Virus record (IMG/VR): IMGVR_UViG_3300028550_000641
Location: 1-21,930 of that record
DNA length: 21,930 nucleotides
DNA from: a virus
Reading direction: 5' to 3' (one strand)
Positions 6-14,149 of the stretch are shown one piece after another. The position numbers and the translations under genes were made by a program. Within the stretch, counting starts at the first letter, position 1; each line of letters starts with the position of its first letter. The notes under the pieces were generated by a model. It searched no databases. It had not been told where the DNA came from and was given only the letters and a program-made list of their open reading frames with translations.

Positions 6-118
6 TAGCAGACTCCTCTTAACACGCAGTCGCTGTATGCCATGTTGTTTACAAACAAATATAGTGCCGTCAATGTTAGAGATAGCACCAAGTACTTAAC
101 GTCTTTGCGTATATACAT
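5..118 (-). CDS. 37-aa hydrophobic micro-protein (single TM or lipoprotein-like)
   Basis: A short reading frame of 37 residues starting MYIRKDVKYLVLSLTLTALY. Its ATG overlaps the stop of the VWA gene (TAATG), and its own stop overlaps the next start (TAATG), so it is translationally coupled on both sides. The N-terminus is positively charged (R4, K5, K8). Residues about 9-23 form one hydrophobic stretch, followed by a short tail with cysteines at 31 and 37. This suits a single-pass inner-membrane peptide or an exported peptide. It could be a small lysis accessory or an anchor for the AAA+/VWA system; neither is demonstrated. The overlaps and the hydrophobic segment are seen directly, and the role is unknown. 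It could be a chance frame because it is so short. Confidence 0.5.
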   Translation of the reverse strand: MYIRKDVKYLVLSLTLTALYLFVNNMAYSDCVLRGVC

Positions 119-1407
119 TACATATCCCTCGACTTGATGTGTACTGCCTTACCCTCGTCGGGCACTGCGCTTTTGTTATCCAGTATCGCCCAGAGGACGG
201 GGCAAGTCCAACTCCCCCAACCGCTGTACAAGTAACCATCAGTCAGAACGATACATGCTTGTGGCCTGATACCCTCGTCGGCCATGTACTGCGTGACACA
301 ATTGACATCAGTGCCTCCACCCCCTTTGGGTTTGGTAGATGTAACCAGACTGTCTAGCTCGTGCATGTCGTATGCCTCGTCACCCACAACACTGCTACCC
401 CAATACAACAGACGTATCTTGTCAGGTTTTACTGTGTCGCATACACCCTTGACCTCGGATAGAAACGTGGTCAGTTCCCCCTGACCAATAGAACCTGACG
501 TGTCAATGGCAATCACTAGCTCGCCAACTTGCTCACTGATACCAGATGGCATGATGATGCCCTGACTCATTAGCCTACGGTTGGGCCGTGCGTATGTAGA
601 GTAGTCGTTACCTGCACACGTTGTCTGTATAAACTCACGTAGTACCTCACGCCAATCGACCTGTGGCTGTAGTAACTCGTCGAGATCGCGGTTGCCAGTA
701 CCACCCATCTTACCTGCGGCCATAGCACCCTGACGTATTGCCTCGTCAATGTCCCGCGCCAACTCACGTTGCTCCTCCTCGGATAGTTCCTGCGCACCAT
801 CCCAGTCATGCTCATCGAATCCACTTCCCTGACCTACTGCGGTGTTTTGTGAGCCTGTGGTAGCGCCTCCACTCTGTTCACCCTCACCCTCTGACTCGTT
901 ATCCTGTGAGGCATTACCACTACCCTGCCCGGGGGGCTGTTCTTCTTGCTCCTTGCGTAGAATGTTGAACACTTGCGCGGAGTCCATGCCACGGAACCGT
1001 TCATCTAACAGCCCCTCATACTTGCCAGTTGGCATTGTGGCAAACCCATCGCCCTTGTTGTCATCGACGATCTTGATGTTGATAACGTAGTCACACGCGC
1101 AGTTAGCTAGGTGTGGGTCAATGTCATACATCCACCGCCATGTAGTGAGGTGACGGTATAGCTTGTGTCCCTCGTCCTCGTGCAGTACCACGAACCGTAG
1201 TTCTGAATCTATGAGCGCGTCTACCATCTCACGCCCGTACTTCACATCACGCCCGTTGGTACAGGCTGTCGGTATGTCATCCTCGACCGTCTTCTCACCG
1301 ATCATCAATACACCTGCTAGTGCTGTGTATCTGGGGTGCCCCATGATGGCCACGACTGCCTTGGACAGTCGCTCCTCTGCTGTAAGCTGTTTACCTATAG
1401 TTAACAT
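118..1407 (-). CDS. Metallopeptidase-like / VWA-domain protein (DUF2201-type)
   Basis: A 429-residue protein with two modules joined by a low-complexity linker (about 155-205, rich in G, E, Q, S). The N-terminal module (about 10-150) resembles the putative metallopeptidase domain that accompanies VWA in this family. It carries H76-E77, H81 and H86, but the motif reads HEDEGH, one residue longer than HExxH. The C-terminal module (about 295-415) is VWA-like: DTSGS at 302-306, GGGGTD at 362-367 and LTDG at 388-391 form a probable MIDAS metal site. It begins 10 bases after the upstream AAA+ gene, with a GGGGG ribosome-binding stretch. MoxR-type AAA+ ATPases and VWA proteins commonly work as a pair that remodels or inserts cofactors into a client. 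Phages often carry such a pair, with client unknown. The domain call is strong; the biological role is inferred. Confidence 0.85.
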   Translation of the reverse strand: MLTIGKQLTAEERLSKAVVAIMGHPRYTALAGVLMIGEKTVEDDIPTACTNGRDVKYGREMVDALIDSELRFVVLHEDEGHKLYRHLTTWRWMYDIDPHLANCACDYVINIKIVDDNKGDGFATMPTGKYEGLLDERFRGMDSAQVFNILRKEQEEQPPGQGSGNASQDNESEGEGEQSGGATTGSQNTAVGQGSGFDEHDWDGAQELSEEEQRELARDIDEAIRQGAMAAGKMGGTGNRDLDELLQPQVDWREVLREFIQTTCAGNDYSTYARPNRRLMSQGIIMPSGISEQVGELVIAIDTSGSIGQGELTTFLSEVKGVCDTVKPDKIRLLYWGSSVVGDEAYDMHELDSLVTSTKPKGGGGTDVNCVTQYMADEGIRPQACIVLTDGYLYSGWGSWTCPVLWAILDNKSAVPDEGKAVHIKSRDM

Positions 1408-1417
1408 TGTCTACCCC

Positions 1418-2500
1418 CTATGCTTTGTCTGCGGCGAACATGTAGTTATTCTGCATAGCCCACTCGGTGAACTTCTTGCTCTGCATAACTACGTTACGGT
1501 GTGCGTAGGTATTACTGCGGCACCCATTAGCGAATAGACCTTGCGCTTCCTTGTCTAGTCGTTGCATGTATGTCACCCATGAATCTACCCAGTCACGGTT
1601 CATCGCACCTAGTGCGCGGTACACTGTCATACATATAGCTGATGCTGACTCGGGTACCTTGGCGTTGAGCGGATCGTCCTTGATAGACTGTAGGCTAGGT
1701 AGTTGGTCGGCTAACTTCACGAACGCCATCATGTCCATAGCTCCACGGTCACCGATAGTACCCATGAGTAAAGCTGTTAGGCTGTGATCGTCATACATAT
1801 CGCGTAGCTTGAGCACGTCACTAGCGGCCTCCAATGATCTTGGGGTGATAAACGCGGCACGTTGCGCCTTGGGGTGATAGATGTACGGGTTGTCATCGGG
1901 GTTCTTCACATCCTCGAAGCCTTGTAGTACCTGCGGGAACTCACGTACGAAACCTAGCACACTGTGATCGACCTCGTTGTTGATACCCCAGTCGATAAAC
2001 TCGTCACTGGTAGACTTGCGTGCTGTGACTACGGTGATACGGTTGCGGGTATGTGGGGGTAACAGATCGCCCACACCCTCTGCGCTTAGGTTGGTAGTAG
2101 CGAACACAATGCTACCTTCTGGTAACTTCTTTGTGCCTACCTTGTGCTCTAACATAGTAATGTTGAGGGCGTTCTTCACTGCGGGGTTAGCCTTACCTAA
2201 CTCATCAATGTTAATAAGCAGTGGCTTGCCTAGGTGTATACCGAACTCCTCGTTGGGTAGGTATGTGACGTAACCCTCCTCGGTGTTGAGTGATGGTATG
2301 CTGATGTCACCCAAGTCCTTGGTGGTACAGTCGAAGTAACAAGGTGTGTGGTTGGGGAATCTCTCTGCTAACGTCTTTAACAGTGATGACTTACCGTTAC
2401 CCATGTGACCCTGTACGAGTATGGTGCGTTTGTGTCCAACAGTAGCGATAGCGTTGGCGATTTGGTCTAGCGATAGCGCGTACATATTTTGTGTATTCAT
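1418..2500 (-). CDS. MoxR-like AAA+ ATPase
   Basis: A 360-residue ATPase. Walker A is GHMGNGKSS at 31-39, Walker B is LLINIDE at 94-100, sensor 1 is FATTN at 133-137, and arginine-finger candidates are R152 and R154. The length and order match the MoxR/AAA_5 class, with an extra helical C-terminal region after about 220. It should hydrolyse ATP as a ring and remodel a client, with the VWA protein encoded directly downstream (10-base gap) as its adaptor. The start ATG lies 25 bases downstream of a perfect 18-bp palindrome, which occupies nearly all of the short gap behind the 64-aa gene. The leader just before the ATG is A-rich without a strong Shine-Dalgarno. The ATPase identity is sure; the client is unknown. 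Confidence 0.92.
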   Translation of the reverse strand: MNTQNMYALSLDQIANAIATVGHKRTILVQGHMGNGKSSLLKTLAERFPNHTPCYFDCTTKDLGDISIPSLNTEEGYVTYLPNEEFGIHLGKPLLINIDELGKANPAVKNALNITMLEHKVGTKKLPEGSIVFATTNLSAEGVGDLLPPHTRNRITVVTARKSTSDEFIDWGINNEVDHSVLGFVREFPQVLQGFEDVKNPDDNPYIYHPKAQRAAFITPRSLEAASDVLKLRDMYDDHSLTALLMGTIGDRGAMDMMAFVKLADQLPSLQSIKDDPLNAKVPESASAICMTVYRALGAMNRDWVDSWVTYMQRLDKEAQGLFANGCRSNTYAHRNVVMQSKKFTEWAMQNNYMFAADKA

Positions 2501-2525: not shown

Positions 2526-2543
2526 TGTCTACATATGTAGACA
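2526..2543. promoter_or_regulatory. Perfect 18-bp palindrome, copy 1
   Basis: TGTCTACATATGTAGACA is its own reverse complement. This copy sits inside the minus-strand operon, between the stop of the 64-aa gene and the start of the AAA+ gene, 25 bases before that start. As DNA it could be an operator for a dimeric regulator. As RNA it could fold into a 7-bp stem with an AUAU loop just before the ribosome-binding region. An intra-operon position argues for an internal promoter/operator or an RNA-level role. Confidence 0.6.
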
Positions 2544-2545
2544 GT

Positions 2546-2740
2546 TTAGTTGGTTAGTGTCTCGACAATGCGACCATCAACGGCCACGATTTTGTAATAC
2601 GATACGCGGTGTGTGCGTAGCGTGCGTAGGCTCTTGTAGTGCTTGGTGCGCTTGTAGTTGCGCACTCGTAACACCGTCTGCCCATCTAGGTTGCCCAGTA
2701 CCTGACGGTCGTTTGAATCATAGGCTTCAACGTAATACAT
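2546..2740 (-). CDS. 64-aa basic hypothetical protein
   Basis: A small protein starting MYYVEAYDSNDRQVLG. The frame is open further upstream into the preceding gene, but the start at 2740 is preferred: it lies one base after that gene's TAA, with GGGGA just upstream. It is rich in Tyr, Arg and Lys in the middle (KRTKHYKSLRTLRTHR) and ends with a short predicted beta stretch. No family was recognised. Its place between the 297-aa protein and the AAA+ ATPase suggests it belongs to the same functional unit. A small nucleic-acid-binding or regulatory protein would fit the charge, but this is a guess. Confidence 0.6.
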   Translation of the reverse strand: MYYVEAYDSNDRQVLGNLDGQTVLRVRNYKRTKHYKSLRTLRTHRVSYYKIVAVDGRIVETLTN

Positions 2741-2741
2741 C

Positions 2742-3635
2742 TTACATCCCCAATGATGGTAGTGACTTGATGACATCGTCCACTGCCCGTTTAGTTTCGG
2801 CACGGAATGACTCGTTGTTACGTAACCCATCGGGAGTGACCCCGCGTAGCGCATCCTCTAGCTTGAGTGCCATCGCTGACATCTGGCTGTCACCTGATAC
2901 GTTACACACGTTAAGCAGTTCTACCATGTCTAGCACGTTGTCCACTAGCGTATCGCGGAACACTTTCTTCTTGTCGCACCCGCCATAGTCCAGTCGCTCG
3001 GACATATTAGACAGAGCCTTGTACGTACGATCCCAGACATCCTGCATGGCTGACCCCAACTGCTTACTATAGTAGTCGCTATAGTGTGACTCCAAAACGT
3101 CACGTTGCTCGTTGCCCACGTCCACACGAAAATCACCTGCCTCGGGTAGCGGTATGTATGAGATGCTGAACGCAAACTTACTGCGTATAGACTCCTCGGT
3201 CGGGTAGTCCTCGACACGAAACAAACTACCGATACGTGCCTGCGCCCTGCTTACTTCCCAAGTGTAGTTGCTACAAAACGTATCGACCATACCTGTAAAC
3301 TCGTTCTGTAGGTCGGTCATCTGTTGGTGGTACTTGAAGTACTGCGCGGTAGGTAGCAGTCGCATACCCAGATCGCTCCACGGCATTGTCATGCTGTAGT
3401 GTATGTTGCGTGCATTGGCCACGAATTTCTGGATGGCGGTCAGCTCATCGCAATTACCTAGTAACTTCTTATTGACTGATGCCGTACCGTTATCGGCATA
3501 GTTCTGGCTAGTCACTGATGCTGATGCTGACTTGTCTTTCTTGCGTCCAGTCCAACAGCTAATCTTGAGTTCTCCTAACATGGCACTGGACGCGATTGAT
3601 GGTGCGCTTACCTGTGGTGCGTTTGTATTGTTCAT
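2742..3635 (-). CDS. Conserved phage protein accompanying MoxR/VWA genes
   Basis: A 297-residue, mostly helical and soluble protein with no transmembrane segment. After a Ser/Ala-rich N-terminus it has MLGELKISCWTGRKKDK near 19-35, a segment PWSDLGMRLLP near 85-95, and EAGDFRVDVG near 164-173. These phrases resemble a conserved but functionally uncharacterised phage family that I associate with MoxR/VWA gene pairs; I cannot assign a DUF number confidently. It is the first gene of the leftward operon, about 100 bases downstream of a consensus promoter, with a palindrome 18 bases before its ATG. Gene order suggests it is a client, adaptor or regulator of the ATPase. The coding call is strong; the function is unknown. 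Confidence 0.75.
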   Translation of the reverse strand: MNNTNAPQVSAPSIASSAMLGELKISCWTGRKKDKSASASVTSQNYADNGTASVNKKLLGNCDELTAIQKFVANARNIHYSMTMPWSDLGMRLLPTAQYFKYHQQMTDLQNEFTGMVDTFCSNYTWEVSRAQARIGSLFRVEDYPTEESIRSKFAFSISYIPLPEAGDFRVDVGNEQRDVLESHYSDYYSKQLGSAMQDVWDRTYKALSNMSERLDYGGCDKKKVFRDTLVDNVLDMVELLNVCNVSGDSQMSAMALKLEDALRGVTPDGLRNNESFRAETKRAVDDVIKSLPSLGM

Positions 3636-3653
3636 AATGTCTTGCTCCGAATG

Positions 3654-3671
3654 TGTCTACATATGTAGACA
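3654..3671. promoter_or_regulatory. Perfect 18-bp palindrome, copy 2
   Basis: Identical to copy 1, including the following GTT on the plus strand (21 identical bases). It lies in the predicted transcribed leader of the minus-strand operon, downstream of the promoter at 3746-3773 and 18 bases before the 297-aa start codon. That position suits an RNA stem-loop near the ribosome-binding site or a roadblock operator. Confidence 0.6.
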
Positions 3672-3745
3672 GTTAGTTTGTCTTACTGCGTGATAACATC
3701 TTATGACGTATCACTTGATAGGCTAAATCTCTCAGCCATGTAACC

Positions 3746-3773
3746 ATTATACGCTGATGGTGGCTTATGTCAA
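3746..3773 (-). promoter_or_regulatory. Consensus sigma70 promoter for the leftward operon
   Basis: On the minus strand the sequence reads TTGACA (complement of 3768-3773), a 16-base spacer, then TATAAT (complement of 3746-3751). Both hexamers match consensus exactly. Transcription would begin near 3739 and give a leader of about 100 bases that contains palindrome copy 2. Such a strong host-type promoter fits early or constitutive expression by host RNA polymerase. The spacer is one base shorter than optimal. Confidence 0.75.
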
Positions 3774-3810
3774 ATGGTGGCTAAACGTGTTGTTTGGTGT
3801 GAAACGGTGT

Positions 3811-3850
3811 TGTGTACTCCTGTGTACTCCTGTGTACCTGTGTGTAGGTC
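3811..3850. repeat. Tandem 10-bp repeats
   Basis: Four consecutive decamers: TGTGTACTCC, TGTGTACTCC, TGTGTACCTG and TGTGTAGGTC. The first two are identical and the next two share the TGTGTA core. The array lies just upstream of the consensus leftward promoter, at the edge of the AT-rich motif block. A period near one helical turn would put protein-binding sites on the same face of DNA. The function is unknown. Confidence 0.6.
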
Positions 3851-3868
3851 GGTAAGTCCTTGATATAC

Positions 3869-4165
3869 CTACAATGTTACTTTGTTACCTTTTTGACGGA
3901 ATTACAGGGCGATATTTTTATTGGTTTGAATCGGTGAGAGAAAGGTAACAAAGCGAATAATTCCTTGGTACCTAAGTAATTCTGAGGAAAAGGTAACATT
4001 ATAAATTATTTTATAAATAGATAAGAAACAGCACAATCTGATAGGCAATCCTCGATCACCCTGCGTATGTCAGATCATTACTTGTCATCAAAACACACAA
4101 TCTGATAATGTTACTTTTAAAAGGTACAGAGAGGTAACATTACCCTGAAAAAGGTAACATTGTAG
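3869..4165. other. AT-rich block with GGTAACA motifs: candidate origin or control region
   Basis: Noncoding and AT-rich. The motif GGTAACA(T), or its complement (A)TGTTACC, is seen at 3874-3880 (ATGTTAC only), 3883-3889, 3944-3950, 3992-3999, 4108-4114 (ATGTTAC only), 4133-4140 and 4153-4160. Two pairs make perfect inverted repeats: 3880-3892 with 3941-3953 (13 bp) and 3869-3880 with 4154-4165 (12 bp, spanning the whole block). A direct repeat CACAATCTGATA occurs at 4032-4043 and 4096-4107. Iterated short sites in AT-rich DNA are typical of replication origins or multi-site repressor regions. No replication gene lies in the window to support one choice over the other. Confidence 0.4.
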
Positions 4166-4169
4166 TTTT

Positions 4170-4185
4170 GTCTACATATGTAGAC
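4170..4185. promoter_or_regulatory. Palindrome copy 3 (16-bp core)
   Basis: GTCTACATATGTAGAC is preserved; the outermost pair is broken (T at 4169 against G at 4186). It separates the AT-rich motif block from the 28-bp direct repeats and is not directly in front of a convincing gene. Being far from any start codon, this copy fits a DNA-binding site better than an mRNA leader element. Confidence 0.55.
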
Positions 4186-4200
4186 GTTTTTGCCTTGACC

Positions 4201-4332
4201 CGCAACGCGGAGGCTATAACTGGTATCACTAACGTGTCAGGACGTGAGGCGCAACGCGGAGGCTGTAACTGGTATCAACACGTCACGCTGTGTGAGGTGC
4301 GAGGCGCGGCGCGATCTATGAAACTGGTATCA
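4201..4332. repeat. 28-bp direct repeat plus a third partial copy
   Basis: Copies at 4201-4228 and 4250-4277 differ at one base in 28 and begin CGCAACGCGGAGGCT. A third copy keeps only the last 11 bases, AACTGGTATCA, at 4322-4332. The spacings (49 and 55 bases) are not multiples of three, so they do not encode a protein repeat. The region is GC-rich compared with the AT-rich block before it. The third copy runs into a hairpin at 4328-4347 (TATCAAAA / TTTTGATA, loop GACT). It may be a protein-binding array or part of a small untranslated RNA. Confidence 0.6.
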
Positions 4333-4351
4333 AAAGACTTTTTGATAGACG

Positions 4352-4375
4352 AAAAAAAAGCCCCTCGAAAGGGGC
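4352..4375 (-). terminator. Rho-independent terminator of the 199/66-aa pair
   Basis: On the minus strand a 6-bp GC-rich stem (GCCCCT / AGGGGC, loop of four) at 4360-4375 is followed by eight T residues (complement of 4352-4359). It begins 7 bases after the stop codon of the 66-aa gene, so it ends the leftward transcript of that pair. No U-tract follows on the plus strand. Confidence 0.85.
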
Positions 4376-4381
4376 CAGTTG

Positions 4382-4582
4382 TTATTGCCAGCTTAGGATG
4401 TGATCAATGATTGATCGGTGATTACCTAATTTAGATTGTGCTAACTGTCGCTCAATGCGCAGGTCAGACAATACCGAATCCATATCCCTGCTAGAATTAC
4501 CAGTGAGTGATAAGTTCAACTGACATGCCTGTAAATGGGCTATGGTATCTTCGATCAATTTAATCTGAGTAGATGGTTTCAT
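4382..4582 (-). CDS. 66-aa hypothetical protein
   Basis: A small, largely helical protein starting MKPSTQIKLIEDTIAHLQAC. The frame extends ten codons further upstream to an ATG at 4612, but the start at 4582 is preferred because AAGGAAC lies correctly placed before it. A heptad-like pattern (I, L, L spacing) over the first 25 residues and again near 40-55 suggests a short coiled coil or helical hairpin. It is the last gene of a two-gene minus-strand unit that ends in a terminator. No family was recognised. A hairpin-forming inverted repeat, GGCCAT-CC-ATGGCC at 4603-4616, lies between it and the upstream gene. Confidence 0.6.
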   Translation of the reverse strand: MKPSTQIKLIEDTIAHLQACQLNLSLTGNSSRDMDSVLSDLRIERQLAQSKLGNHRSIIDHILSWQ

Positions 4583-4626
4583 AATGTTGTTCCTTATTGA
4601 GTGGCCATCCATGGCCGGTGAGTGGT

Positions 4627-5226
4627 TCAGTGCTTAGGTTCGACTGGGGTGTTTACCAGTTTGACCAGTGCCGCCAGTGCCGCAGTCACTGCGACCACGT
4701 CATACTCTGGTGTTTCCTTTCCCTGAGCGATCTTATTAACCCGATTGAGTAACTCAATTTCCTTGGTCACTCCGAGCTGTTTAGCCGGTGCCGCCTCAGT
4801 CGCTTCACCCTTCGGTTGTTGCGGTGCCTTCTTAGACTTACTGTCGCGGTAAGCCTTATCTTGTCGCAGTCGCATGGCATCCCTATCTGCGCACATGTAT
4901 CGGGCCAGTAGTTTGCCAGCGTCTCGCTTCTCTACCTTGCGTGCTTCACTCAGTGCCTTAGTAGGCGTGTTAGCCAGTTTGACTATGGCCGCGCCCATAC
5001 CCTTGAGTCGGGCCATCTGAAGCGATGCTCTCAGTTCGTCGGTGGCGGTCGACTGGTGGCCGTCATGTTCCTTGCCTACTGCGACCCATTGAGTCCAATG
5101 GTGGTTCTCTTTAATAGCTAGATCGTATGCTACCTGAGCCGCCTTGCGTGCCCCTACATCTTTGCGGGTGGCCGCAGTAATTGCGTTGGCTACTGTATTG
5201 CTTAGGGTGTTGTTTAGCTTTGACAT
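4627..5226 (-). CDS. 199-aa Ala/Lys-rich hypothetical protein
   Basis: A protein of 199 residues beginning MSKLNNTLSNTVANAITAAT, with AAAGG nine bases before the ATG. It is mostly helical, rich in Ala and Lys, with a charged Pro/Gln linker near 130-148 (KSKKAPQQPKGEATEAAP) that separates an N-terminal helical part from a shorter C-terminal helical part ending in a Val/Ala-rich helix. No catalytic motif, membrane segment or known domain was recognised. Its gene and the 66-aa gene form an isolated leftward unit between two noncoding control regions, a typical site for phage early or accessory genes such as host-takeover or anti-defence proteins. That role is inferred only from position. Confidence 0.7.
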   Translation of the reverse strand: MSKLNNTLSNTVANAITAATRKDVGARKAAQVAYDLAIKENHHWTQWVAVGKEHDGHQSTATDELRASLQMARLKGMGAAIVKLANTPTKALSEARKVEKRDAGKLLARYMCADRDAMRLRQDKAYRDSKSKKAPQQPKGEATEAAPAKQLGVTKEIELLNRVNKIAQGKETPEYDVVAVTAALAALVKLVNTPVEPKH

Positions 5227-5330
5227 AATGTATACCTTTAGTTATTCAAGATGCGTTATTGCGTCTTGATGGTTCCCATGTTAACAGGTTACCACGAAAA
5301 GGCAATAGATACCTTACAAGCTAATCAAAA

Positions 5331-5348
5331 TGTCTACATATGTAGACA
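5331..5348. promoter_or_regulatory. Perfect 18-bp palindrome, copy 4
   Basis: The same TGTCTACATATGTAGACA sequence. It lies 104 bases before the start of the 199-aa gene and about 450 bases before terS, in the divergent intergenic region. It could act on the leftward pair, the rightward virion operon, or both. Confidence 0.6.
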
Positions 5349-6390: not shown

Positions 6391-7936
6391 TGTCGCCGCA
6401 GACTTTACGCAGGACGAAATCCAGCATATGTTGGATAACATTGATACTTTTAGTGTCGATGAAGTGGCTGAGATAGAGAAACTTGTCGATGAACTGGGTA
6501 AAAGACGTATAGTTAAGGCCGCGTACGACGATTTAATTGAATTTTGTAAACTTATGATGCCTGACTTCATTGTTGGTAAGCATCATAGGATTCTAGCCGA
6601 CCTATTAATGGCTATTGAGAGTGGGGATAAGGATAGAGCGTGCGTAAATATCCCTCCGCGCCACGGAAAGTCCCAACTAGTGTCTATTTTCTTCCCAGCG
6701 TGGTATTTGGGGCGTAATCCAGACAAGAAAGTGATGATGGTATCGCACACAACCGACCTCGCGGTGGATTTTGGACGTAAAGTGCGTAACTTAATCTCTA
6801 GTGAAGCATACACAGACATATTTCCTACCGTAAGGTTAGCCAGTGACTCTAAATCAGCCGGTCGTTGGAGTACTAGTGTAGGTGGGGAGTACTACGCCTG
6901 TGGTGTTGGATCAGCTCTAGCGGGTCGTGGTGCTCATTTACTGTTGGTAGATGACCCACACTCGGAGCAAGACGTGATTAACGGCAACTTTGTCGTCTTT
7001 GAGAAGGCATATGAGTGGTTTACGTTCGGTGCTCGTACACGTCTGATGCCCGGAGGTAGCGTAGCTATCATCCAAACTAGATGGCATATGGACGACCTGA
7101 CAGGGCGCGTGGTCAAGGATATGGCCCAGAACGAGCGAGCTGACCAGTATGAGGTCATAGAGTTTCCTGCAATACTAGATGTAGACGACAAAGACACAGG
7201 TAAGCCCATACAAAAACCCTTATGGCCTGAGTTTTTCGACCTTGAGGCGTTACTCCGTACCAAAGCATCCATGCCTGTGTTCCAGTGGAATGCGCAGTAT
7301 CAGCAACAACCTACCGCAGAAGAAGCCGCATTAGTTAAAAGAGAGTGGTGGAACGAGTGGGAGAAGGAACGCCCGCCCAGTTGTGAGTACATAATCATGT
7401 CGTTGGACTCGGCGGCAGAGAAACACAACCGTGCGGATTACACGGCACTGACTACGTGGGGGGTGTTTCTTAATGAGGAGACTTCAGCGTATAATATAAT
7501 CTTGCTTAATAGTATAAAAGAGCGTATGGAGTTCCATGAGCTGAAAGAATTAGCTATGGATCAGTACACAGAATGGGAACCAGACGCGTTTATCGTGGAG
7601 AAAAAGAGTTCAGGAGTCGCGTTATACCAAGAAATGCGGCGTATGGGGCTACTTGTACAAGAATATACCCCTCATAGGGGTTCTGGTGATAAACTAGCGC
7701 GATTAAACTCTGTATCTGATATTGTGCAATCTGGACTATGTTGGGTTCCGCAGACTAGATGGGCAGAAGAAGTAGTAGAAGAGATCGCTGGATTCCCGTT
7801 TATGAGTAATGACGATCTGGTGGATTCTACAGTTATGGCACTTATGCGGTTCAGGCAGGGTGGGTTTATACGATTACCTACTGATGAGCCAGAAGAGATC
7901 AAATATTTTAAACATCGCGGTAGCGGGTTTTATTAA
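6383..7936 (+). CDS. terL: Terminase large subunit (ATPase and nuclease)
   Basis: A 517-residue DNA-packaging motor. The ATPase domain has Walker A PPRHGKS at 91-97 and Walker B LLLVDDP at 186-192. The RNase H-like nuclease has acidic residues in MSLDSA (D342), IVEKKSS (E406) and SNDDLVDS (D477, D478, D481). Length and motif order are usual for the family, so it looks intact. It cleaves concatemeric DNA and pumps it through the portal into the prohead. The likely start is a GTG at 6383 inside the end of terS (8-base overlap), implying coupled translation. It is the most secure identification in the window. Confidence 0.97.
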   Translation: MSSVAADFTQDEIQHMLDNIDTFSVDEVAEIEKLVDELGKRRIVKAAYDDLIEFCKLMMPDFIVGKHHRILADLLMAIESGDKDRACVNIPPRHGKSQLVSIFFPAWYLGRNPDKKVMMVSHTTDLAVDFGRKVRNLISSEAYTDIFPTVRLASDSKSAGRWSTSVGGEYYACGVGSALAGRGAHLLLVDDPHSEQDVINGNFVVFEKAYEWFTFGARTRLMPGGSVAIIQTRWHMDDLTGRVVKDMAQNERADQYEVIEFPAILDVDDKDTGKPIQKPLWPEFFDLEALLRTKASMPVFQWNAQYQQQPTAEEAALVKREWWNEWEKERPPSCEYIIMSLDSAAEKHNRADYTALTTWGVFLNEETSAYNIILLNSIKERMEFHELKELAMDQYTEWEPDAFIVEKKSSGVALYQEMRRMGLLVQEYTPHRGSGDKLARLNSVSDIVQSGLCWVPQTRWAEEVVEEIAGFPFMSNDDLVDSTVMALMRFRQGGFIRLPTDEPEEIKYFKHRGSGFY

Positions 7937-7947
7937 GAGGTTACAAA

Positions 7948-10419
7948 ATGGCAATTGAGAAAGGTTTATACGCCGCTCCTGAAGGCATCGAAGACGTAGA
8001 AGTAGAGGAACTTGAGGGGGGAAACGAGCTTGAGATAGAGATAGTTGACCCTGAGATGGTTACTCTGGACGATGGTAGTGTAGAGATCACTATTATCCCG
8101 GGCGTTGAAGTAGATGACTTTATGTCGTTTGACACCAACTTGGTAGACGCACTAGATGAAAGTTACCTAAACGAGTTATCAGGTGACCTAATAGGTATGG
8201 TAGACGCTGACGTAGATAGCCGTAAAGACTGGGCTGAAACATACGTTAAGGGGCTTGATATTCTAGGATTCAAGTATGAAGAGCGCACTACTCCTTGGCA
8301 AGGCGCTTGTGGCGTAAACTCTACAGTTCTTGCTGAAGCGGCTATTCGTTTCCAAGCAGAGACCATGAGTGAGACTTTCCCTGCCGCTGGCCCCGTAAGA
8401 GTTAAGGTTTTAGGTAAAGAGACTAAGGATAAACTAGAAGCTGCTGAACGCGTAAAAGCGGACATGAACTACGAGCTTACCGAGAACATGGTTGAGTACC
8501 GTCCTGAACACGAGCGTATGCTATATAGCCTAGGACTCGCAGGATCGGCGTTTAAGAAGGTTTACTTTGATGCTACTATAGGTAGACAGGTAGCGATCTA
8601 TATCCCCGCAGAAGACGTTATCGTGCCCTACGGCGCGTCTAACATCGAGTCAGCGGAGCGTGTTACCCATGTAATGCGTAAGACTAAGAATGAAATGATG
8701 CGACTGCAAGTTAGTGGTTTTTATGCAGGCGTAGAGCTAGGTGATCCAGAGCCGTTCCACACAGACATCGAAGAGAAAAAAGCCGAAGAAGGTGGTTACG
8801 ACATCACCGACGATGATCGGTATACCGTGTACGAGATTCATGCCGAGCTTGTTATAGAAGGTATAGATGACGAAGATGGACTAGCAAAACCTTACATAGT
8901 TACAATCGAGCGGGGCACAGGAGAAATACTTGCCATTCGTCGTAATTGGGACGAAGAAGACATGCTCACCATGAAGCGCCAGCACTTTGTACATTACGTG
9001 TACGTGCCCGGATTTGGCTTCTACGGTCTTGGATTGATTCACATAGTAGGTGGGTACGCCAAAGCAGGAACGTCGATTATACGGCAACTGGTGGACGCTG
9101 GTACCCTATCTAACCTTCCGGGGGGCTTAAAGTCTCGTGGATTGCGTATTAAAGGCGATGACACCCCAATCGAGCCGGGGGAGTTTAAAGACGTTGATGT
9201 GCCATCAGGTAGCATCCGCGAGAACATCATGCCTCTTCCTTATAAAGAGCCTAGCCAGACTCTACTAGCGTTGCTGAACCAGATCACTACTGAAGGCCGT
9301 CGTTTAGGCGCTATCAGTGACATGAACATCTCTGACATGTCCGCTAATGCCCCAGTGGGTACTACACTAGCCCTGCTAGAACGTACTCTCAAACCAATGG
9401 CAGCAGTACAAGCACGCGTACATTACGCTATGAAGCTAGAGTTTAAGATGCTCAAAGCTATCATGGCCGAGGAAGCTCCAGAAGAATACGATTACCAGCC
9501 TAATAGAGGCGAAGTATCAGCACGTCAGTCTGACTACGCTATGGTCGATGTAATCCCTGTAAGCGACCCTAACAGCTCTACAATGGCTCAACGAGTAGTA
9601 CAGTACCAAGCCGTGTTGCAGATGTCGCAACAAGCTCCACAAATATACAACCTCCCTCAATTACATCGTCAGATGATTGAAGTGCTCGGCGTTAAGAACG
9701 CTGATAAGTTAGTCCCTACGGAAGATGACATTAGACCTGCTGATCCCGTAAGCGAGAACATGAACGCGCTAACAGGTACCCCTATAAAAGCGTTTATAAC
9801 TCAAGACCACGAAGCTCACATAACGGCTCACCAGTCGTTTATGCAAGACCCTATGATCGCACAGACCATCGGGCAGAACCCACAAGCACAGCAAATAATG
9901 GCCGCACTCAACGCGCATATCGCTGAACACCTTGGGTTTAGATACCGCACGCAGATGGAAGAGAAGTTGGGCGTTGCACTACCCCCACCGAATGAGGAGC
10001 TACCTGAAGAGATTGAAGTTCAGTTGTCACGCCTCATATCCGAAGGTGGCAAGCAGCTAACCGACCAACATAAACAAGAAGCCGCGCAGAAACAAGCGCA
10101 GCAACAGCAGCAAGACCCCGTGTTCCAGCTACAACAGGCAGAATTACAGGTTAAGCAGCAGGATGTACAACGTAAAGCGCAGAAAGACCAAGCCGATATG
10201 CAACTCAAACAGGCTGAGTTACAGCGTAAAACGCAGAAAGACCAAGCTGATGTGGCTATAGATCAGCAACAACTCGAAATCGAAAAACAAGAGTTGGAAA
10301 TAGATGCTCAGAAAGCCGGAGCTAAACTAGCTGCCGATAGAAGGACAGCTAATACTAAACTCGACCTAGACTTAATGAAAACTCAGAGCGAGGTCGAAAA
10401 CAAACGTAACAAGGAATAA
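7948..10419 (+). CDS. Portal protein
   Basis: An 823-residue protein following the large terminase, with AGAGG before its ATG. The N-terminal 60 residues are very acidic. The body contains the phrases YEERTTPWQGACGVNSTVLA (about 109-128) and LYSLGLAGSAFKKVYFDATI near 191-210, typical of long portal proteins in marine podovirus-like phages. From about residue 704 the protein becomes a Gln/Lys-rich coiled coil with near repeats (RKAQKDQAD and RKTQKDQAD), like the barrel of P22-type portals. Twelve copies would form the vertex through which DNA enters and leaves and to which adaptors bind. It is long compared with the ~500 residues of many portals, but such length is usual for this lineage. Confidence 0.92.
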   Translation: MAIEKGLYAAPEGIEDVEVEELEGGNELEIEIVDPEMVTLDDGSVEITIIPGVEVDDFMSFDTNLVDALDESYLNELSGDLIGMVDADVDSRKDWAETYVKGLDILGFKYEERTTPWQGACGVNSTVLAEAAIRFQAETMSETFPAAGPVRVKVLGKETKDKLEAAERVKADMNYELTENMVEYRPEHERMLYSLGLAGSAFKKVYFDATIGRQVAIYIPAEDVIVPYGASNIESAERVTHVMRKTKNEMMRLQVSGFYAGVELGDPEPFHTDIEEKKAEEGGYDITDDDRYTVYEIHAELVIEGIDDEDGLAKPYIVTIERGTGEILAIRRNWDEEDMLTMKRQHFVHYVYVPGFGFYGLGLIHIVGGYAKAGTSIIRQLVDAGTLSNLPGGLKSRGLRIKGDDTPIEPGEFKDVDVPSGSIRENIMPLPYKEPSQTLLALLNQITTEGRRLGAISDMNISDMSANAPVGTTLALLERTLKPMAAVQARVHYAMKLEFKMLKAIMAEEAPEEYDYQPNRGEVSARQSDYAMVDVIPVSDPNSSTMAQRVVQYQAVLQMSQQAPQIYNLPQLHRQMIEVLGVKNADKLVPTEDDIRPADPVSENMNALTGTPIKAFITQDHEAHITAHQSFMQDPMIAQTIGQNPQAQQIMAALNAHIAEHLGFRYRTQMEEKLGVALPPPNEELPEEIEVQLSRLISEGGKQLTDQHKQEAAQKQAQQQQQDPVFQLQQAELQVKQQDVQRKAQKDQADMQLKQAELQRKTQKDQADVAIDQQQLEIEKQELEIDAQKAGAKLAADRRTANTKLDLDLMKTQSEVENKRNKE

Positions 10420-14091: not shown

Positions 14092-14149
14092 GAATCTGAC
14101 AGACCCGACTGACGACATGTAGACAGATTCTCCTTAACTCACATGTGAG
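14092..14149 (+). promoter_or_regulatory. Structured leader: inverted repeat and 12-bp palindrome
   Basis: GAATCTG (14092-14098) pairs with CAGATTC (14124-14130). A perfect palindrome, CTCACATGTGAG, occupies 14138-14149, ending nine bases before the ATG, where the ribosome-binding site should be; no normal Shine-Dalgarno is seen. The leader also holds CATGTAGACAG, similar to half of the TGTCTACATATGTAGACA palindrome. It may control translation or mRNA stability. Confidence 0.35.

Follow-up and report, generated by a model that had tools for sequence, protein, structure and literature searches.

A dispersed array of early-region palindromes in uncultured phages and o199, a candidate regulator that changes with them

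Which protein, if any, reads a perfect palindrome that recurs in the intergenic gaps of a phage early region, and what would it do there? The question is raised by IMG/VR record IMGVR_UViG_3300028550_000641, a phage fragment of 21,930 bp that was analysed over its complete length and is referred to below as the window. Its genes form two regions, an early one read leftward (a VWA/DUF2201 gene, a MoxR-like ATPase gene, o297, o76, and o199) and a late one read rightward, which starts with TerS and TerL. We propose, as a likely though not secure reading, that the palindromes are operators of a dispersed array controlling the early genes, and that they are read by a dimeric DNA-binding regulator, the product of o199.

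The whole window was scanned for the palindrome TGTCTACATATGTAGACA with up to three mismatches allowed. Three perfect copies and a fourth with one mismatch (TGTCTACATATGTAGACG) were found, and no others. An earlier, sequence-only reading had placed four copies at these positions, including a 16-bp core at 4170–4185, and had put two of them 18 and 25 bases before start codons; the scan agrees on both counts, the genes being the 297-aa gene (start 3635) and the 360-aa ATPase gene (start 2500). Its view that the recurrence exceeds chance also holds (expected count 0; zero matches in 100 dinucleotide-preserving shuffles). A half-site that it had reported near 14117 exists as an exact 10-mer at 14116–14125, which stands alone, lacks a second arm, and is probably a coincidence. 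None of the four copies lies within a conserved gene. Gene starts are mechanical calls throughout, and the + strand open reading frames (ORFs) formally spanning 4169 and 5331 are such calls without other support. The number of copies is that of a fragment, in which sites past the left end are invisible; a near relative (G007) has six. The copies and the gene that we connect with them are as follows.

2526..2543, no strand: palindrome copy 1, TGTCTACATATGTAGACA, inside the early operon, 25 bp upstream of the start (2500) of the MoxR-like ATPase gene
3654..3671, no strand: palindrome copy 2, 18 bp upstream of the start (3635) of the 297-aa (DUF3150) gene
4169..4186, no strand: palindrome copy 3, TGTCTACATATGTAGACG, one mismatch, in a 0.75-kb noncoding gap that also has sites in relatives
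5331..5348, no strand: palindrome copy 4, ahead of o199 by 104 bp and of the -35 element of a predicted promoter, P1, by about 25 bp
4627..5226, minus strand: o199, 199 aa, first early gene, proposed palindrome-binding regulator on account of its co-variation with the palindrome

Relatives were gathered first via TerL and then by three more scans, which gave 258 related contigs. Metagenomic contigs may be chimeric; each pattern described here was seen in several independent contigs. The exact 18-mer was found in only 12 other viral stretches. At the equivalent positions, relatives carry other palindromes, each repeated within its own genome, including TGTATACATATGTATACA, GTTATAAC-NNNN-GTTATAAC, TTAGGTAATTACCTAA, AGTTCTACANTGTAGAACT, TTCGGGC-NNNN-GCCCGAA, TTTAGGG-NNNN-CCCTAAA, GTTAGTG-NNN-CACTAAC, CTAGCC-NNN-GGCTAG, and others. 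The sequence-only reading had taken absence of the motif from the equivalent gaps of relatives as a sign against its proposal; the sequence is indeed absent from most of them, but the gaps hold a different palindrome, so the sign misleads. Twenty-three classes of arm and spacing were assigned in 177 of the 258 contigs, mostly with 4–11 near-identical copies per genome, and the 81 unassigned contigs include short ones or ones without the region. These classes were built partly by inspection, plus a fixed class list; automatic motif finding picked the wrong repeats in several genomes.

The sites are confined almost entirely to early gaps. Of 182 sites in 22 long contigs, 166 were in gaps, 16 were inside annotated early ORFs, and none were in late genes. 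They span 10 kb or more, and in contigs with terminal repeats, which were taken as complete (e.g., G017), every site is in the early arm. Distances to start codons are kept as well: 18 sites stand 15–28 bp before moxR, among 21 long relatives with a moxR-assigned site, and the distance from site end to start codon is 17–30 bp for o297, 13–23 bp for f24, 2–14 bp for an SNF2 helicase gene, and ~50–140 bp for o199. Two local arrangements may be recorded separately. Palindromes occur at an exact spacing of 110 bp upstream of the early operon in two contigs (G024 at 28849, 28959, and 29069; G025 at 7914 and 8024), and an intrinsic terminator hairpin with a T-run lies directly ahead of the palindrome of an Hjc-like gene (L165, ~9060–9124; G029, ~36450–36509), where an ordinary promoter would not fit.

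We then asked which gene changes together with the palindrome, taking genome pairs with o297 at least 80% identical as the yardstick and scoring the identity of each gene as a predictor of a shared palindrome by the area under the receiver operating characteristic curve (AUC). For o199, the AUC was 0.98 (253 pairs with the same palindrome, 130 with different ones), as against 0.46–0.63 for o297, moxR, vwa, f10, terS, terL, and polA, and 0.73 for f24. Primase, SSB, HTH82, and tail2190 were represented by very few pairs, which makes their AUC uninformative. The protein was then split into an N-part (the protein without its last 55 residues, about residues 1–140 in the window) and a C-part (the last ~55 aa). 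N-part identity was 49–100% in pairs with the same palindrome and 14–39% in pairs with different ones, with no overlap (AUC 1.0). The C-part (AUC 0.87) varies independently: it is common to different classes in L019, L132, and L026 (C-part 88–90%, N-part 22–38%) and differs within one class in L034 and L133 (N-part 70%, C-part 18%). When all 3,240 pairs were considered, ~98–99% of the 183 pairs with N-part identity of at least 50% shared a class (97–100% in each of four bins), compared with a base rate of 0.11. In the exceptions, the window with L028 and L025 with L174, the arms are related. This pairing is strong correlative evidence, and on these comparisons o199 is very probably the reader of the sites.

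Three other candidates were rejected as readers or partners. A helix-turn-helix (HTH) protein of 83 aa (HTH_17) is 98% identical in G041 and G027 despite their different palindromes, and the fast-evolving f10 protein (308 aa) is 94% identical in the same pair, with an AUC of 0.59. The late gene for a 2190-aa tail protein reached an AUC of 1.0 from just nine pairs and is contradicted by G027 and G028, which share a palindrome at 19% identity of this gene, and by G007 and G028, which differ in palindrome at 60%.

Some genomes that are otherwise nearly identical differ in both o199 and the palindrome. Between G041 (GTTATAAC) and G027 (TGTATAC), conserved early genes are 93–100% identical, f24 is 85% identical, and o199, at 49–50%, is the sole strongly diverged conserved early gene. 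The palindrome has changed within kept flanks at two sites (both flanks) and at a third (one flank), and G027, which has five TGTATAC sites, still carries a single GTTATAAC site, ahead of f24, a leftover that recombination could also explain. Between L165 (GTTAGGG) and G029 (GGTAGTC), the vwa, moxR, o297, terS, terL, and f10 proteins are 96–100% identical and o199 is unrelated (8%); at three distant sites (6418, 7849, and 9124 in L165), the 40-bp flanks are identical at 36–40 of 40 positions and the palindrome differs. L164 with G030 and L172 with G029 are further pairs of this kind. G030 has GGTAGTCC-type, GTTAGTG-type, and hybrid (GGTAGTGCGGCACTAAC, GGTAGTGCCGGCACTACC) sites; those found at these places in L164 are GTTAGTG. 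Not every flank is kept so well: close to o199 and within the noncoding gap, the flanks differ too. Constant flanks and leftover old or hybrid sites suggest that, once o199 changes, each site is rewritten on its own.

Whether such sites act as DNA or as RNA was left undecided by the sequence-only reading, which had offered a phage operator or an RNA stem-loop. The operator is the half that fits better: the sites lie in early gaps, their positions are kept in relatives, and the N-part of one gene tracks them. They are palindromes of 15–20 bp, and pairing holds at 98% of arm positions across 767 non-redundant sites, and the central 3–4 bp vary; the arms are fixed, whereas the centre is free and occurs in both orientations. 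Arm mismatches on the mRNA strand comprised 19 G-U and 24 A-C (p = 0.54), giving no excess of G-U, and compensatory pairs within genomes amounted to 4 of 5,340. With no excess of G-U pairs and almost no compensated changes, the arms would have to be exact and not merely paired, which speaks more for a symmetric protein bound to DNA than for an RNA hairpin. On balance, o199 probably acts on DNA.

The strongest rival takes the transcribed palindrome to be a hairpin of 7–8 bp before ribosome-binding sites, through which an RNA-binding protein of the o199 type would control translation, processing, or antitermination. It has some attractions: intercistronic sites end 11–30 nt before the starts of o297, moxR, f24, and the SNF2 helicase gene, a Shine–Dalgarno signal directly follows, terminator-like hairpins precede some sites, centres of 3–4 nt suit hairpin loops, and spacings of three and four are mixed within one genome. 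No -10/-35 pattern is apparent in the flanks of sites close to start codons, which have A-rich borders in addition to the Shine–Dalgarno signal. Where the gap exceeds 50 bp, no more than about one third of the sites adjoin a start codon with a Shine–Dalgarno sequence. Against an RNA element stand the exact arms just described, the freedom of the supposed loop bases, the position of one site ahead of the promoter that o199 probably uses, and the lack of any Rfam family matching in the window. We consider it unlikely.

What a DNA-bound regulator might do is suggested by the promoters and genes around the sites, listed here for the window.

118..1407, minus strand: VWA/DUF2201 gene, next in the early operon
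1418..2500, minus strand: MoxR-like ATPase gene, 360 aa, phrog_1297, downstream of copy 1
2742..3635, minus strand: o297, 297 aa, weak DUF3150 match, downstream of copy 2, the neighbour used as yardstick
3746..3773, minus strand: P2, perfect sigma-70 consensus TTGACA-16-TATAAT (12/12), upstream of the operon of the 297-aa gene, in the noncoding gap
4359..4376, minus strand: intrinsic-terminator-like hairpin with T-run, 3' of the 76-aa gene and ahead of copy 3
4382..4612, minus strand: o76, early gene of 76 aa, no function assigned
5278..5305, minus strand: P1, predicted sigma-70-type promoter of o199, TTGCCT-16-TAACAT, a prediction only; relatives align as TTGNNN-16-TANNAT

Copy 2 lies ~68–85 bp downstream of the predicted start of P2. 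A near-consensus P2-like promoter was found in 63 of 106 relatives, compared with 12 of 106 when shuffled, and the first palindrome typically falls at about +31 to +85 counted from it. In many genomes, the weaker P1 separates o199 from the palindrome upstream of it. In the proposed mechanism, the basic N-terminal part of an o199 dimer would recognise both arms, and the helical C-terminal part, which is exchangeable between alleles, would probably serve dimerisation or contact with an effector. Autoregulation may come from the site that precedes o199's own probable promoter. A dimer bound at the other sites, which follow the strong early promoter P2 closely or occupy gaps that separate early cistrons, would impede host RNA polymerase during transcription. 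The result would be shut-off of the early genes and exclusion of a second phage of the same class from an infected cell, and such exclusion would favour new specificities. We lean slightly towards repression of this kind, by blocked transcription.

Alternatively, o199 could bind the same DNA sites but chiefly activate or antiterminate transcription, or act by looping, instead of serving as a roadblock repressor. Its upstream site lies ~60–100 bp before the predicted start, and distances from palindrome to predicted -35 cluster in steps of ~10–11 bp over 62 loci upstream of o199, a weak helical phasing (Rayleigh p ~0.004 at 10.5 bp, kinship uncorrected); terminators ahead of some sites would suit an antiterminator. 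Sites at about +31 to +85 of P2, and those in gaps without a promoter pattern, do not suit activation, and we judge this alternative improbable.

Several observations weigh against an operator array read by an o199 repressor. All of the evidence is correlative and comes from pairs that are not phylogenetically independent. Many intercistronic sites immediately precede a Shine–Dalgarno sequence, which fits translational control too. Spacers of 3 and 4 bp are mixed with the same arms in the near-identical genomes L201 and L202, which is unusual for a rigid dimer, and the orientation of the centre is unbalanced in some classes, perhaps by descent. The site ahead of P1 lies clear of the promoter. 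Finally, o199 has no recognisable DNA-binding fold.

The last point was pursued with 93 aligned members of the o199 family. Their AlphaFold model is confident and all-helical (mean predicted local distance difference test score 89, predicted template modelling score 0.64) and has no significant match in PDB or BFVD. The family matched no Pfam family and no HTH family, a profile search of PDB returned chance hits only, and o199 had no match among 50,697 phage records. The N-part is basic (median net charge +7; +11 in the window) and the C-part neutral, and it is from co-variation and charge, with no fold match, that we infer DNA binding.

No description of this system was found in the open-licence literature searched. 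Among known systems, its closest functional analogue appears to be the stoperators of Cluster A mycobacteriophages (L5, Bxb1), of which o199 and its sites are not members. Stoperators are asymmetric 13-bp sites, oriented with transcription and numbering 20–30 per genome of these temperate phages, that are bound by a monomeric two-domain HTH immunity repressor (PMC6550527, PMC9283540). As in the array described here, many near-identical sites per genome occur in promoter regions and short intergenic gaps, one of them near the regulator gene itself, and the consensus differs between phages and matches the repressor of the same phage. Unlike stoperators, the present sites are palindromes of 15–20 bp with centres in both orientations, mostly 4–11 per genome, and restricted to the early region; o199 has no known fold or HTH, an integrase was not found, and specificity is replaced between genomes that are otherwise 95–100% identical.

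In lambda, operators are clustered at two promoters and are read by the HTH regulators CI and Cro, in a phage capable of lysogeny. Shared with lambda are dyad-symmetric sites near the divergent early/late boundary, conserved arms around a free centre, an adjacent regulator gene, and N-terminal specificity. In contrast to lambda, the sites here are spread over at least 10 kb, and no HTH was recognised in o199.

The early promoters of N4 offer a further comparison, being inverted repeats with a short centre upstream of early genes, and a related MoxR gene is present in N4-like phages. By analogy, the palindromes could form DNA hairpins that a virion-borne phage RNA polymerase recognises as promoters; they stand just ahead of early genes with stems of 7–8 and centres of 3–4, and the late 2190-aa protein matches phrog_2206, "virion RNA polymerase" (E = 6e-9). 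When tested, this was not supported. The match is confined to an HExxH-containing stretch, no polymerase motif was seen, a PDB profile search of the family gave only weak hits to zinc proteases and others and not to the N4 mini-vRNAP, and no RNA_pol match was obtained in a search without a positive control. N4 has three sites and requires specific loop bases (PMC4496689), whereas here the centre is free, there are 4–11 sites, no polymerase domain was found, and the palindromes track o199 and not the 2190-aa gene (G027/G028, G007/G028). Strong sigma-70 promoters are also present, and N4-type promoters are very improbable. As a separate matter of annotation, late proteins of 2,100–2,300 aa with HExxH (L108:1-5634, minus strand; G023, G024, and G026) match phrog_2206 outside the polymerase domain, and the label may mislead.

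A role of the sites in segregation, replication, or packaging (parS-like or iteron-like), or an origin as small mobile repeats, is likewise very doubtful. Several sites do share a noncoding gap with other repeats, and replacement within constant flanks is precise, but the sites recur at gene starts across the early region and track one small gene, and no integrase was found (ParA/ParB were not specifically searched).

A few other elements of the window deserve mention. The noncoding gap at 3780–4340 has many short direct repeats (GTGTACTCCT; GGTAACATT-like; CGCAACGCGGAGGCTRTAACTGGTATCA twice) and is possibly an origin of replication or a source of small RNAs. The o199 leader (5245–5275) contains an imperfect inverted repeat, TTCAAGATGC..GCGTCTTGA, and relatives seem to retain a hairpin there with changed sequence. 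The VWA/DUF2201 protein (118–1407, minus strand) matches phrog_1314, labelled "HNH endonuclease", a label that looks wrong.

As to lifestyle, tyrosine integrases (Phage_integrase) were detected in none of 21 long contigs and in 14 of 14 positive-control genomes (serine integrases and ParABS were not searched), and only one short contig of a metagenome-assembled genome matched among 84,980 species genomes. These phages are probably not integrating prophages, and their classes of regulator and site suggest immunity-like classes in phages without a sign of lysogeny.

It is an old question how the specificity of a regulator can change when its sites are many and dispersed, since each site must follow. 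Here the change has seemingly occurred repeatedly between genomes otherwise 95–100% identical in protein, and leftover and hybrid sites make the steps readable and testable. A regulator family with more than 20 specificities and no known fold could be used for studying recognition, and a new fold for o199, if confirmed, would make this a new regulator family. It is an evenly balanced possibility, in our view, that these widespread uncultured phages, in which an integrase went undetected, carry such a new family with a new fold, whose N-part is swapped for unrelated sequence and whose dispersed sites are then rewritten singly, in an arms race of specificity between superinfection exclusion classes whose intermediates may be seen in metagenomes.

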